This document shows positions 29,557-46,298 of a DNA stretch of 64,000 nt, in pieces. This DNA comes from Alphaproteobacteria bacterium (GTDB lineage: Bacteria; Pseudomonadota; Alphaproteobacteria; Micropepsales; Micropepsaceae): positions 682,001 through 746,000 of the forward strand of contig WGMH01000001.1 in NCBI GenBank assembly GCA_016125165.1. The letters are read 5' to 3'. How positions within the stretch are numbered: position 1 is the first letter of the stretch; each line of letters opens with the position of its first letter. The notes under the pieces are model-generated. The model was not told where the DNA came from and ran no database searches. It saw nothing but the letters and a program-made list of their open reading frames with translations. Made by a program: the position numbers and the translations under genes.

Positions 29557-30174
29557 ATGCGCCCGATCTATGACGTGCTCTACAATTTTCACTGGATCAT
29601 ACCCGGCGAGGTTGCCCGCTCGGCGCAGGCCTATGCAGGGTTTCTGGGACCGTTCCTGAAGGTTCACCGCATCGCCACGCTTATCAACCTGCGCGGGCCC
29701 AATGCGCGTTACATGTGGTGGCGCTATGAGGCGCGCGTCTGCGATAAGCTCAGCGTCGAGCACAAGAACACGATGCTGAATTCCCGCCGCCTGCCCACGC
29801 GGCAGATGCTGATCAACCTGATCGACGCCTTCGACAGCGCCAAGACACCGATCCTTCTGAAATGCTCTGGCGGACAGGATCGTTCGAGCTTCGCGGCGGC
29901 GCTCTATCTCATCAACCGTTTCGGCTGGGATGCGAAGGAGCGCGCGCGTGCACAATTCGCGCGCTGGCCCTACCTGCACAATCCAAAGAAGCATCAACGC
30001 TGGCTGAAACCGTTTTTGGATTTCGCCGCCGAAGAAGCAAATGGCAAGCCGCTTCGCGCCTTCATCGAAAACGACTATACGCCCGAACGTTTGAAGGCAT
30101 GGCTGGAAGCGCGTGGGCTCGGCGATACGTTTCGCGGGCTCTACGACAAGCCCGGCACCGCGCCGGGGCTTTGA
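29557..30174 (+). CDS. Tyrosine/dual-specificity phosphatase-like protein
   Basis: The 205-residue protein has the cysteine-phosphatase P-loop CSGGQDRS: Cys103 and Arg109 match C-x5-R. The upstream LINLRGPN motif, and the start RPIYDVLYNFHWIIPGEVARSAQ, fit the bacterial dual-specificity phosphatase group. Substrate could be a protein or an inositol/lipid phosphate. The stop shares one base with the alkB start (TGATG), so the two are co-translated. Confidence 0.85.
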   Translation: MRPIYDVLYNFHWIIPGEVARSAQAYAGFLGPFLKVHRIATLINLRGPNARYMWWRYEARVCDKLSVEHKNTMLNSRRLPTRQMLINLIDAFDSAKTPILLKCSGGQDRSSFAAALYLINRFGWDAKERARAQFARWPYLHNPKKHQRWLKPFLDFAAEEANGKPLRAFIENDYTPERLKAWLEARGLGDTFRGLYDKPGTAPGL

Positions 30175-30803
30175 TGGCAACGCTTCAGCCCGGCGTTGTG
30201 CTGTGGCCGGGCTTGCTCGATGCTGCGGCGCAGGCCGCGCTCGTCGCGGAAATCTTCGTGTTGCTGAAAGACGCGCCGCTTTATCGACCCACCATGCCGC
30301 GCTCGGGAAAACCGTTCTCGGTGGAGGAATCCAGTTTCGGTCCGCTCGGCTGGGTGTCGGATGTGAAGGGCTATCGCTATGCGCCCGTGCATCCCTTCAC
30401 CGGAAAACCATGGCCCGCCATTCCACAGATGCTGATGGATCTTTGGGATGCGCAAACGCGCTATCCCGCGCCGCCGGAATGTTGTCTCGTCAATCACTAT
30501 AGCGAGGATGCGAAGATGGGCCTGCATCAGGATCGGGACGAAGCAGATTTCGATGCGCCCGTGCTTTCGGTATCGCTTGGCGATGACGCGTTCTTCCGCA
30601 TCGGCGGCGAAGCGCGTGGCGGCAATACGGCGCGCGTGAAACTGGCATCGGGCGATGTGCTGATGTTTGGCGGCCCGGCGCGCCTCGCCTTTCACGGCAT
30701 CGATCGCATTGTGCCTGGCACCTCTCGGCTTGTTCCCGGCGGCGGGCGCCTCAATCTGACGCTCCGGCGGGTAACAAAAAAAGACGCCCGACCAGGGGGC
30801 TGA
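30174..30803 (+). CDS. alkB: AlkB family alpha-ketoglutarate-dependent dioxygenase
   Basis: The 209-residue protein has the AlkB iron site HxD at His118/Asp120 (LHQDRDEAD), the distal His174 (FHGIDR), NHY at 107-109, and the 2-oxoglutarate arginines Arg192 and Arg198 in GRLNLTLR. It removes 1-methyladenine and 3-methylcytosine by oxidation. Its last nine or so codons lie inside a hairpin that is the terminator of a leftward small RNA. The tail KKDARPGG is lineage-specific. Confidence 0.94.
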   Translation: MATLQPGVVLWPGLLDAAAQAALVAEIFVLLKDAPLYRPTMPRSGKPFSVEESSFGPLGWVSDVKGYRYAPVHPFTGKPWPAIPQMLMDLWDAQTRYPAPPECCLVNHYSEDAKMGLHQDRDEADFDAPVLSVSLGDDAFFRIGGEARGGNTARVKLASGDVLMFGGPARLAFHGIDRIVPGTSRLVPGGGRLNLTLRRVTKKDARPGG

Positions 30804-30926
30804 TCGGGCGCCGGTTTGCGCCGTTACGCGCGTGGTACCGGGAGGGGATGACCGGTACCTTGCGAAGGATGCTCTCCGGCGTGCGAGCGGGGGGGCAGTG
30901 CTAGCCGGAGAGGCAATATCCTTCGC
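30776..30926 (-). ncRNA. Candidate small RNA with three C-rich hairpin loops
   Basis: Read leftward, a promoter ends 5 bases before 30926, where a 9-bp stem begins (GCGAAGGAT at 30926-30918 with ATCCTTCGC at 30870-30862). Inside it is a second 9-bp stem, CTCTCCGGC with GCCGGAGAG, whose loop holds seven C. Hairpin 2 is GGTACCGG with CCGGTACC (30859-30834), loop containing CCCC. Hairpin 3 (30810-30785) has an 11-bp stem, a CCCC loop, and seven T after it. No reading frame is apparent. Length about 150 nt. C-rich loops suggest pairing to Shine-Dalgarno regions, as in some alphaproteobacterial sRNAs, but no known family was recognised. Confidence 0.65.
30783..30812 (-). terminator. Intrinsic terminator of the candidate small RNA
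   Basis: CGCCCGATCAG pairs with CTGGTCGGGCG (11 bp, one G-U) around a CCCC loop, then GTC and seven T at 30782-30776 on the minus strand. The alkB stop codon (30801-30803) lies within the stem on the other strand. It could also end leftward transcripts from the MOSC-aminotransferase operon. Confidence 0.85.
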
Positions 30927-30931
30927 GATCA

Positions 30932-30960
30932 AACCTATGCATTCAGGCCACAGTTGGCAA
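30932..30960 (-). promoter_or_regulatory. Sigma-70-type promoter for the candidate small RNA
   Basis: On the minus strand TTGCCA (30960-30955) and TAGGTT (30937-30932) are exactly 17 bases apart. The predicted start of transcription falls on the first base of the first hairpin stem (about 30926), which supports both the promoter and the RNA. Confidence 0.6.
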
Positions 30961-31038
30961 GTTTTTTCTTCTGAAAAGGAGTTCATGCAACTTTAGTGCG
31001 TGACAGTTGCATAACTGACACAACCAAATTGGGGCGAA

Positions 31039-31683
31039 TCAGCCCGGCTCCAGCCAGCGATTGACGATGCGCCGCCAGGCTTTTGCCAGCGCCGGTGCCG
31101 CCAAAGTCCGCTCCCGCACGTCCGCCGGAACACCCGGATGCATGCCCGAAACGAAGGCTTCGCGGATGTCAGGCCCACTGCCCTGCTGTGTGCGCACGAG
31201 TTCCGCGCCGGATACGGGCGCGGCTCCTTCGGCGACCACGCGGAAATAAATCCCGCATCGCGCGGATTGGGTCATGCGCGCGGGAATATCTTCTCGCATC
31301 GTGTGCAGCGCAAGTTTGAAGCAGGGCGCGCGCGGCTGACACACTTCGATCACCGCATCGCCCCACTGAAAGCGATCGCCGATCGCGAAGGTGGTTTCGT
31401 CTTCGCAATCAAGCGTCAGATTTTCGCCAAAGGTTGCAGGTCCGCAGTCGAGCTTGTGCTCACGCTGCCACCAAGCCCAATGCCCTGCCGGATAGGCATA
31501 GACCGCCTTTTCCAAGCCGCCATGCACGGAAAGATCGGCCTGCCCGTCGCCCTCGATATTCTCGCGGCGCACGAACAGACTGTTCGCCGCCACCGGCTTC
31601 TTGGCGATGCCGGAGAAGATCTCTTCGCCGTTCATCACCGCCAGAAGCTGCGGACGCGCCACATTCACCGAAAGAATGCGCAT
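31039..31683 (-). CDS. MOSC domain protein (YiiM-like)
   Basis: The 214-residue protein starts MRILSVNVARPQLLAV and carries the MOSC features: DLSVHGGLEKAVYAYP, GPATFGENLTL, GDRFQWGDAVIEVCQPRAPCFKLA with a conserved cysteine, and GIYFRVVAEG. YiiM-type MOSC proteins bind a molybdenum cofactor and reduce N-hydroxylated compounds such as 6-hydroxylaminopurine. The TAATG overlap couples it to the aminotransferase gene upstream. Confidence 0.9.
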   Translation of the reverse strand: MRILSVNVARPQLLAVMNGEEIFSGIAKKPVAANSLFVRRENIEGDGQADLSVHGGLEKAVYAYPAGHWAWWQREHKLDCGPATFGENLTLDCEDETTFAIGDRFQWGDAVIEVCQPRAPCFKLALHTMREDIPARMTQSARCGIYFRVVAEGAAPVSGAELVRTQQGSGPDIREAFVSGMHPGVPADVRERTLAAPALAKAWRRIVNRWLEPG

Positions 31684-33068
31684 TACATCTTTCCGTAATC
31701 GCGCGCGGTGTTGTCGATGGCGGATTTCAGCTTGGCAATGATCTCTTCCACTTCCGATTCCACAATGGTGAGCGGCGGGCTCAAGACCATCGTGTCGCGG
31801 ATGGCGCGGCTGATGAGGCCGCTGTTGAAGCAGTAATTGCGGCAATGTGTTCCGACATCACCGACATTCGCGAAAAAGGCGCGCTCGTTCTTGTTGGGCA
31901 CCAGTTCGATGGCCGCGAGCAGACCCAGCCCGCGCACCTCGCCCACCAGCGGATGTGGTTCGAAGGTTTCGCGCAGCCGCTTCTGGAAATAGGCGCCGAC
32001 GCCGCCCTTCGTTCGGCCCACAAGCCCGTCGCGTTCCATCACTTCGAGATTCTTCAGCGCCACCGCCGACGCCACGGGGTGGCCCGAATAGGTGTAGCCG
32101 TGCACCATTTCTTCGTTCGCGTTCAAAAGCGTATCGGCCATGCGTTCGCCGAGCGAGATTGCCGAAATCGGCTGATAGCCCGAGGAAAGCCCTTTTGCCA
32201 TCGTCATGATGTCGGGGCGGATGCCATAGGTGTTCGCGCCGAACCATTCGCCTGTGCGCCCGAAGCCCGTAATGACTTCGTCGAGATGCAGCAGCACATC
32301 GTATTTCTGGCAAACACGTTGCACCTCGGGCCAATAGGTCGATGGCGGAAAGATCAGTCCGCCCGCGCCCTGCACCGGCTCGGCCGAGAACGAGGCGACA
32401 TTCTCCGGTCCCAGTTCGACGATCTTGTCTTCAAGGGCCTTGGCGATGAGAACGCCAAAGGCTTCCGGGTCGATATCGCCATAGCCATTTGCCTTCGCGC
32501 CGAACCAGTAGGGCGTTGGCACCTTCTCGAATCCGGGCAGCGGCAGGTCCCATTGCGGATGCATGGGTGTCAGGCCCGACAGCGACGCCGCCGCCATCGT
32601 CACGCCGTGATAGGCAAGCTCGCGCGAGAGATGGATTTTCTTCTTCGTCTTGCCCTTCAGGTTCCAGTAATAGCGGATCAGCTTCAAAGCGCTGTCATTT
32701 GCTTCCGAACCGGAATTGGCGAACAGCACGCGCTCATGGCCTTCCGGCAAAAGTTTCGCGAGCTTCGCGGCAAGGTCGATGGTGTACGGGTTCGTCGTTT
32801 TGAAGAAGTGGTTATAATAGGGAAGCGTTCGGAGCGCCTCGCAGCCGGCTTCCGCCAATTCCTTGTTGCCGTAGCCCACCTGCACGCACCAGAGCCCGGC
32901 CATGCCATCGATGATCTTGTGGCCTTCGCTGTCCCACAGATAGACGCCTTCGGCGTGGGTGATCACGCGCACGCCTTCCTTGTTGAGCGCGGCGGTATCG
33001 GAGAACGGATGAACGTGATGGGCGGCGTCGAGCGCCTGCCAATGCTTGGTGCGGTTGTGCGTTGTCAT
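31683..33068 (-). CDS. Class III aminotransferase (putrescine-pyruvate type, SpuC-like)
   Basis: The 461-residue PLP enzyme has WDSEGHKIIDGMAGLWCVQVGYG, the FANSGSEANDSALKLIRYYW motif, LHLDEVITGFGRTGEWFG, and the PLP lysine in DIMTMAKGLSSGYQPISA. The best match in memory is the putrescine/omega-amino acid:pyruvate aminotransferase group. A glutamine synthetase-like gene and a GATase at 37.5-39.6 kb support polyamine use. The ATG at 33068 is set by the family N-terminus (HWQALDAAHHVHPF). Confidence 0.9.
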   Translation of the reverse strand: MTTHNRTKHWQALDAAHHVHPFSDTAALNKEGVRVITHAEGVYLWDSEGHKIIDGMAGLWCVQVGYGNKELAEAGCEALRTLPYYNHFFKTTNPYTIDLAAKLAKLLPEGHERVLFANSGSEANDSALKLIRYYWNLKGKTKKKIHLSRELAYHGVTMAAASLSGLTPMHPQWDLPLPGFEKVPTPYWFGAKANGYGDIDPEAFGVLIAKALEDKIVELGPENVASFSAEPVQGAGGLIFPPSTYWPEVQRVCQKYDVLLHLDEVITGFGRTGEWFGANTYGIRPDIMTMAKGLSSGYQPISAISLGERMADTLLNANEEMVHGYTYSGHPVASAVALKNLEVMERDGLVGRTKGGVGAYFQKRLRETFEPHPLVGEVRGLGLLAAIELVPNKNERAFFANVGDVGTHCRNYCFNSGLISRAIRDTMVLSPPLTIVESEVEEIIAKLKSAIDNTARDYGKM

Positions 33069-33244
33069 TGTGAGCCTGCCTGAATCGAAAAAATGCCTGG
33101 GAGGAGCCAAAGCTCCGGCGGAACAAAAGCCGTCAGGCGCTCGGCGGATTGTAGCCGATGCGGGCGCAGAGAATCAGCAGGGCGTGCTTGCGCGTCATGC
33201 CCTCTTCTAGCAGGGCATGATGGCAAGGTCACGGCAGGGAAAGG

Positions 33245-46268: not shown

Positions 46269-46298
46269 TGAATTCAACTTTTTTAGGAGGGGGTGATC

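Follow-up and report, generated by a model that had tools for sequence, protein, structure and literature searches.

Between an alkB-like gene and a MOSC-domain gene in the 64,000-nucleotide stretch of alphaproteobacterial DNA analysed here (the window), the minus strand carries a row of hairpins with C-rich loops, which raises the question of whether this locus encodes a regulatory RNA of its own, to which known RNA it might be related and which genes it might control. A preliminary description had proposed an undescribed small RNA (sRNA) with three C-rich loops, antisense to the end of alkB and regulating translation in trans. The features of the locus are collected in Table 1.

Table 1. Coordinates of the sRNA, its parts and the surrounding features in the window
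Feature	Position	Strand	Basis
Dual-specificity-phosphatase-like (dsp) gene, frequent neighbour in the genus	29557..30174	+	Pfam matches under the curated cut-off
alkB-like 2OG-Fe(II) oxygenase gene, convergent, 28-nt overlap with the sRNA	30174..30803	+	Pfam PF13532, 4e-54
sRNA gene, probably RusT-type, ~150 nt	30776..30927	-	fold, covariance model R1, covariation
Stem-loop 4, intrinsic terminator with T7 tail	30776..30812	-	fold; double changes in 12/13 pairs
Stem-loop 3, GCGC-GUAACG-GCGC	30818..30831	-	position corresponds to the place of the Hfq site in RusT
Stem-loop 2, putative seed hairpin by analogy with RusT SL2	30834..30859	-	fold; double changes in 7/7 modelled pairs
Loop 2, UCAUCCCCUC, complementary to G-rich Shine-Dalgarno sequences	30842..30851	-	CCCC kept in 43/43 aligned rows (found with a C-rich model)
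Stem-loop 1, long interrupted hairpin	30862..30926	-	fold; arm-swap test
Loop 1, ACUGCCCCCCCGCUC	30885..30899	-	CCCC kept in 43/43 aligned rows, 42 distinct (found with a C-rich model)
Promoter, -35 TTGCCA (30960-30955), 17-nt spacer, -10 TAGGTT (30937-30932)	30932..30960	-	sequence; anchor conservation
Partly conserved upstream element ending in CTGTCA	31001..31020	-	in 26/38 regions, first TGTC 44 or 45 bases before the -35
MOSC-domain gene, upstream of the sRNA	31039..31683	-	Pfam PF03473, 1.8e-25
Class-III aminotransferase gene, upstream neighbour linking to the xth locus in relatives	31683..33110	-	synteny; homolog in a relative is PF00202
Candidate target site GGAGGGGGTGA, ahead of the start codon (ATG, 46299) of an M13 peptidase gene	46286..46296	+	11 contiguous pairs with loop 2, one of them G-U; predicted

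The locus encodes a structured RNA with its own promoter

The minus strand of the sRNA gene folded at -82.7 kcal/mol (z -8.29), and none of 200 shuffled sequences was as stable. The fold comprised four hairpins and not the three successive ones reported previously, the short GCGC-GUAACG-GCGC stem at 30831-30818 having been missed. All three C-rich loops of the preliminary description were present in it, with CCCCCCC in loop 1, CCCC as part of CCCCUC in loop 2 and CCCC in the terminator loop, and the terminator consisted of 13 pairs followed by seven T, as described. The sRNA scored 134.9 bits with covariance model R1, whose training set includes the window, and the own genome held one strong copy. 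With ATG and GTG frames considered, the RNA of the window contained neither start codon, and the longest such frame across 21 homologs ranged from 0 to 33 aa. A second, weak R1 match in the own genome (27.7 bits, E 0.006) was taken as chance, because it was absent at E <= 0.01 from the list of R2, a covariance model broader than R1.

The minus-strand promoter proposed for the sRNA, TTGCCA-17-TAGGTT, was confirmed, with five bases between its -10 and position 30926, where pairing in the long hairpin begins. The TTG-N5-TGT anchor was found in 38/38 upstream regions examined, the window's own included, TGCATA stood at the matching place in 35 of the 38, and the consensus of these regions read TTGcAAacTGTgGC-N5-TGCATAg.tT. 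A general sigma-70 scan listed 0 promoters, the sRNA promoter being among those it did not list. These computations show that the sRNA has a conserved promoter of its own. The upstream element ending in CTGTCA is perhaps a transcription-factor site. Its distance from the -35 is about 45 bases, and in some relatives its sequence resembles a palindrome. The motif CAA-N3-5-TTG, which we take to be that of NtrX, was not enriched in the 38 sRNA promoters (3/38 and 5/38), which is weak evidence against NtrX control.

Stems and two of the C-rich loops are conserved

Pairing was assessed in two alignments. In the plain MAFFT alignment (A2) of 21 homologs, both sides had changed in 17 of the 33 pairs and 94.6% of cells could pair, a value reached by 0/500 shuffles. 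The model-fitted alignment (A4) of 43 rows (42 distinct, L069 and L093 being identical) showed double changes in 28/33 pairs with 96.4% pairing, counts that lean towards structure because this alignment was fitted to the model. Stem-loop 3 was near-invariant and therefore provided little covariation evidence. In an arm-swap test of stem 1, native arms paired with a mean of -26.2 kcal/mol versus about -15.5 kcal/mol for foreign arms (0/2000 permutations; 49 of 51 homologs, L025 and L062 being skipped); the test covered the whole of stem 1, including the outer part that lies outside the models, and rests on the mean, the native partner ranking first for about half of the 49 homologs.

The compensating changes looked for in the stems were thus found in both alignments, and the expectation of conserved C loops held in part. 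Loops 1 and 2 kept CCCC in 43/43 aligned rows, a count that is partly circular because the rows were found with a C-rich model, whereas the terminator loop kept it in just 15/43. These results demonstrate that the RNA structure is under selection. They support a free-standing, structured RNA whose stems and C-rich loops 1 and 2 are conserved, in agreement with the independent RNA proposed at the outset, and we regard the sRNA as real with high confidence.

Homologs are found beyond the order and point to the lolA-xth locus

Plain DNA comparison matched 18 of 25 genomes of the genus at E < 1e-6, the own genome included. Within the window's order, model R1 matched 92 of 96 genomes, covering 7/7 genera. 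In the class it matched 62 of 385 sampled genomes at E <= 0.1, and R2 matched 50 of the 385 at E <= 0.01. In a phylum sample, 6/200 genomes matched, namely the own genome plus five others from its class (the 26 genomes listed were all the own genome or members of this class). Outside the window's order, homologs are scattered through other Alphaproteobacteria. When a pattern search required TMCCCCT, which excludes the common TCCCCT form, seven of 19 loci were true by R1. The Xanthobacter pattern matches (L089, L090) had no R1 support and were rejected. Weak class matches at L134, L141, L145, L147 and L148 adjoined no linked gene and are doubtful. Very divergent C-rich hairpin elements with weak R2 scores were also observed 3' of lolA, some of them followed by xth, in further families (L132, L133, L136, L137, L140, L142, L144 and L146).

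Gene neighbourhoods were compared with lolA, xth, aminotransferase and MOSC genes named by Pfam; the gene upstream of lolA is presumably ftsK. The order ftsK-lolA-RNA-DUF-xth was found in eight loci of six other families (L110, L112-L115 and L117-L119; the contig of L110 stops before xth), and several further loci had lolA upstream of the RNA, xth downstream of it, or both. The order aminotransferase-RNA-DUF-xth was found in six loci (L111, L116, L124, L138, L093 and L100, of which L111 and L093 are probably one contig). Among these, L124 belongs to the window's own family, in which L121 (aminotransferase and DUF) and L122 (aminotransferase and xth) keep part of the arrangement. In the window itself, neither lolA nor xth is a neighbour of the sRNA; the same aminotransferase gene lies upstream with the MOSC gene in between, and alkB and dsp replace DUF-xth. 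The window copy is tied to the lolA-xth locus through the own-family intermediates L121, L122 and L124. A conserved protein of ~200 aa is encoded between the sRNA and xth (L112:5216-5824 and relatives). This DUF-like protein gave no Pfam match in the one representative tested.

The sRNA resembles RusT in locus and architecture

No Rfam family reached its gathering score in the window or in the 43 fetched loci (17, 9 and 17), doubtful loci included. For an sRNA at the lolA-xth locus, the open-licence papers searched pointed to the RusT paper alone (PMC11005374). The available text of that paper describes RusT as CCNA_R0199 of Caulobacter crescentus, a 118-nt RNA between lolA and xth with four stem-loops, which pairs via loop 2, depends on Hfq and binds it at stem-loop 3, is repressed by NtrX and induced by iron starvation and zinc, and represses TonB-dependent receptors and ompW; homologs are reported there from Caulobacteraceae close to C. 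crescentus (PMC11005374). The label "undescribed" therefore holds as far as Rfam is concerned and fails in that the locus and the four-stem-loop plan fit RusT.

Compared by the available published description, the likeness extends to the lolA-xth locus, which RusT shares with homologs of our sRNA in other families of the class, to the four stem-loops, the last being an intrinsic terminator as in the window fold, and to loop 2 as a pairing site with conserved C (here CCCC in every aligned row). The two differ in length (118 nt for RusT, about 150 nt for the window sRNA), in position, the window gene lying between the aminotransferase/MOSC pair and alkB/dsp and RusT between lolA and xth, and in range, the window sRNA family being wider in the class than the Caulobacteraceae from which that text reports RusT homologs. 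Judged by locus and architecture, with RusT taken from its description, the window sRNA is likely a RusT-type RNA, and its function is likely shared with RusT.

Several other RNAs with C-rich elements were considered, those from the literature on the available parts of their published accounts. In mechanism, the nearest counterpart is sX13 of Xanthomonas; its stem-loops carry loops rich in C, through which it acts on G-rich motifs at ribosome-binding sites (PMC3771888). It differs in being gammaproteobacterial and Hfq-independent with three stem-loops, and we claim no homology with it. The alpha-r8 family (MmgR, SisA-D) is alphaproteobacterial and has an anti-Shine-Dalgarno core, but this core, UUUCCUCCCU, is described as a single-stranded stretch (PMC12559287). 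GsrN (PMC5869019) and CcnA (PMC8959179) of Caulobacter resemble the window sRNA in that a C-rich loop pairs with G-tracts in 5' leaders; GsrN, however, is part of the sigma-EcfG stress response, and its homologs are mostly located next to that locus, C. crescentus being an exception (PMC5869019), and CcnA lies at the replication origin (PMC8959179). Rhizobiales-2 RNA (RF01723) has similar CCUCCCC and CCCCCC stretches. The window reached 19.2 bits with this model against a cut-off of 40 (E = 4), which is not a match, and a search across the class gave 0/289, with the control also lacking a match anywhere, so that this figure carries no weight.

Loop 2 is predicted to pair with G-rich ribosome-binding sites

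In the proposed mechanism, loop 2 (UCAUCCCCUCCC), and perhaps loop 1, would pair with G-rich Shine-Dalgarno regions, above all those of TonB-dependent receptors and other exported proteins. Pairing would block translation, aided by Hfq through stem-loop 3 and the U tail, and transcription may respond to envelope or iron stress. An hfq gene is present in the own genome.

We compared G-tracts at receptor starts with those at other genes. Across five genomes of the order, 55 of 80 TonB-receptor genes had GGGG no more than 24 bases upstream of the start, versus 21 of 171 other genes; among strong-Shine-Dalgarno starts of the same genomes it was found in 54/72 receptors versus 18/76 others. Two genomes without an R2 match showed GGGG at 16/29 receptors versus 6/46 other genes (16/28 versus 6/20 when matched for Shine-Dalgarno strength, p 0.058), and two genomes of other families that carry the RNA showed no significant excess (G032, 3/3 versus 2/6; G133, 8/18 versus 9/39). 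G-tracts at receptor starts are therefore compatible with the sRNA and not specific for it. The score used to choose start codons takes Shine-Dalgarno strength into account and was applied alike to receptors and background. The receptors used, out of all plug-domain matches, were 17/17 (G000), 20/66 (G088), 20/63 (G057), 20/37 (G052), 5/11 (G012), 20/55 (G133), 3/5 (G032), 20/45 (G037) and 12/29 (G035). The receptor loci of the survey were L224-L240 and, in other genomes, L241-L360; the count leaves out G110, G122, G131 and G116, and rows L248, L294, L308, L314, L327, L338 and L345 were dropped from it.

Within the window, the best of 55 gene starts was the predicted site at the M13 peptidase gene (-22.1 kcal/mol). 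Across the own genome, the perfect 8-mer GGGAGGGG preceded an ATG in 16 rows (one site appearing twice) versus 4 for the reversed control pattern, an excess that reflects Shine-Dalgarno sequences in general, because a similar one was seen in genomes without a detected copy (G030, G035). Genes 3' of these 8-mer sites include those of COQ9-like, 2Fe-2S and beta-lactamase-family proteins, which are leads only. For loop 1, the pairing energies of receptor starts were no better than those of other starts (p 0.11). Its 12-base complement GCGRGCGGGGGG occurred in the own genome at the sRNA locus and had no other perfect partner there, and three relatives held five further sites altogether. Loop 1 is also longer, and varies less, than pairing with a Shine-Dalgarno sequence would require. 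As a whole, we infer a trans-acting, Shine-Dalgarno-pairing role as the best account of the locus, and the sRNA probably represses outer-membrane protein genes by loop pairing.

Discussion

We read the locus as a free-standing, trans-acting sRNA of ~150 nt, most likely a divergent and relocated ortholog of RusT, and give this reading a probability of roughly 0.7. A GC-rich sequence yields many hairpins, and a terminator scan showed no excess over shuffled sequences (2 versus 2.8), as would be expected of a mere bidirectional terminator or of chance hairpins; this explanation is refuted by the z value of the fold, the compensating changes and the conserved promoter. It is also very improbable that the RNA acts in cis as an antisense RNA on alkB, as its placement in the preliminary description might suggest. 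The 28-nt overlap with the alkB 3' end exists, but it is confined to the terminator and is incidental, because alkB was not detected beside the sRNA in several relatives. In L015, L018, L023, L024, L123 and L127 the sRNA still adjoins dsp but no alkB was detected beside it, nor was any alkB detected in its vicinity in other families, so that synteny largely refutes a cis-antisense role.

Harder to dismiss, though still improbable, is a decoy or sponge whose C-rich loops would capture a protein or some other RNA in place of mRNAs. The conservation of loop 1 across about 15 nt and the confinement of its complement to the sRNA in the own genome would suit such a role, which for loop 1 alone is compatible with the RusT-type reading; against it stand the complementarity of loop 2 to G-rich ribosome-binding sites and the available accounts of RusT (PMC11005374) and sX13 (PMC3771888), both of which work by pairing. 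Finally, the window RNA could be a C-rich-loop alphaproteobacterial sRNA that is not homologous to RusT, with unrelated sRNAs sharing the lolA-xth gap across families. RusT is known here from its published description, and its homologs are reported, in the available text, from Caulobacteraceae (PMC11005374). Among five divergent forms of the lolA-xth type, each trimmed to 118 nt, position 53 was C in three and G in two, a split that favours neither view. The same locus, however, carries model matches in several families, and the four-stem-loop plan with its terminator is identical to the one described, which makes non-homology unlikely, if worth keeping in mind.

We tentatively suggest a possible broader picture, in which the RNA belongs to an old sRNA family spread across the Alphaproteobacteria and has two separate conserved elements. 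Loop 2 would be a general seed that pairs with outer-membrane receptor mRNAs at their G-rich ribosome-binding sites, and loop 1 (ACUGCCCCCCCGCUC) would be the recognition site of a protein or RNA partner.

In the available text, RusT has so far been described from one bacterial family (PMC11005374). The sRNA of the window is probably a distant, relocated relative of this iron-stress RNA, whose C-rich loops most likely mask the ribosome-binding sites of outer-membrane protein genes, and the family to which it belongs provides a testable explanation of why G-tracts mark the starts of TonB-receptor genes.
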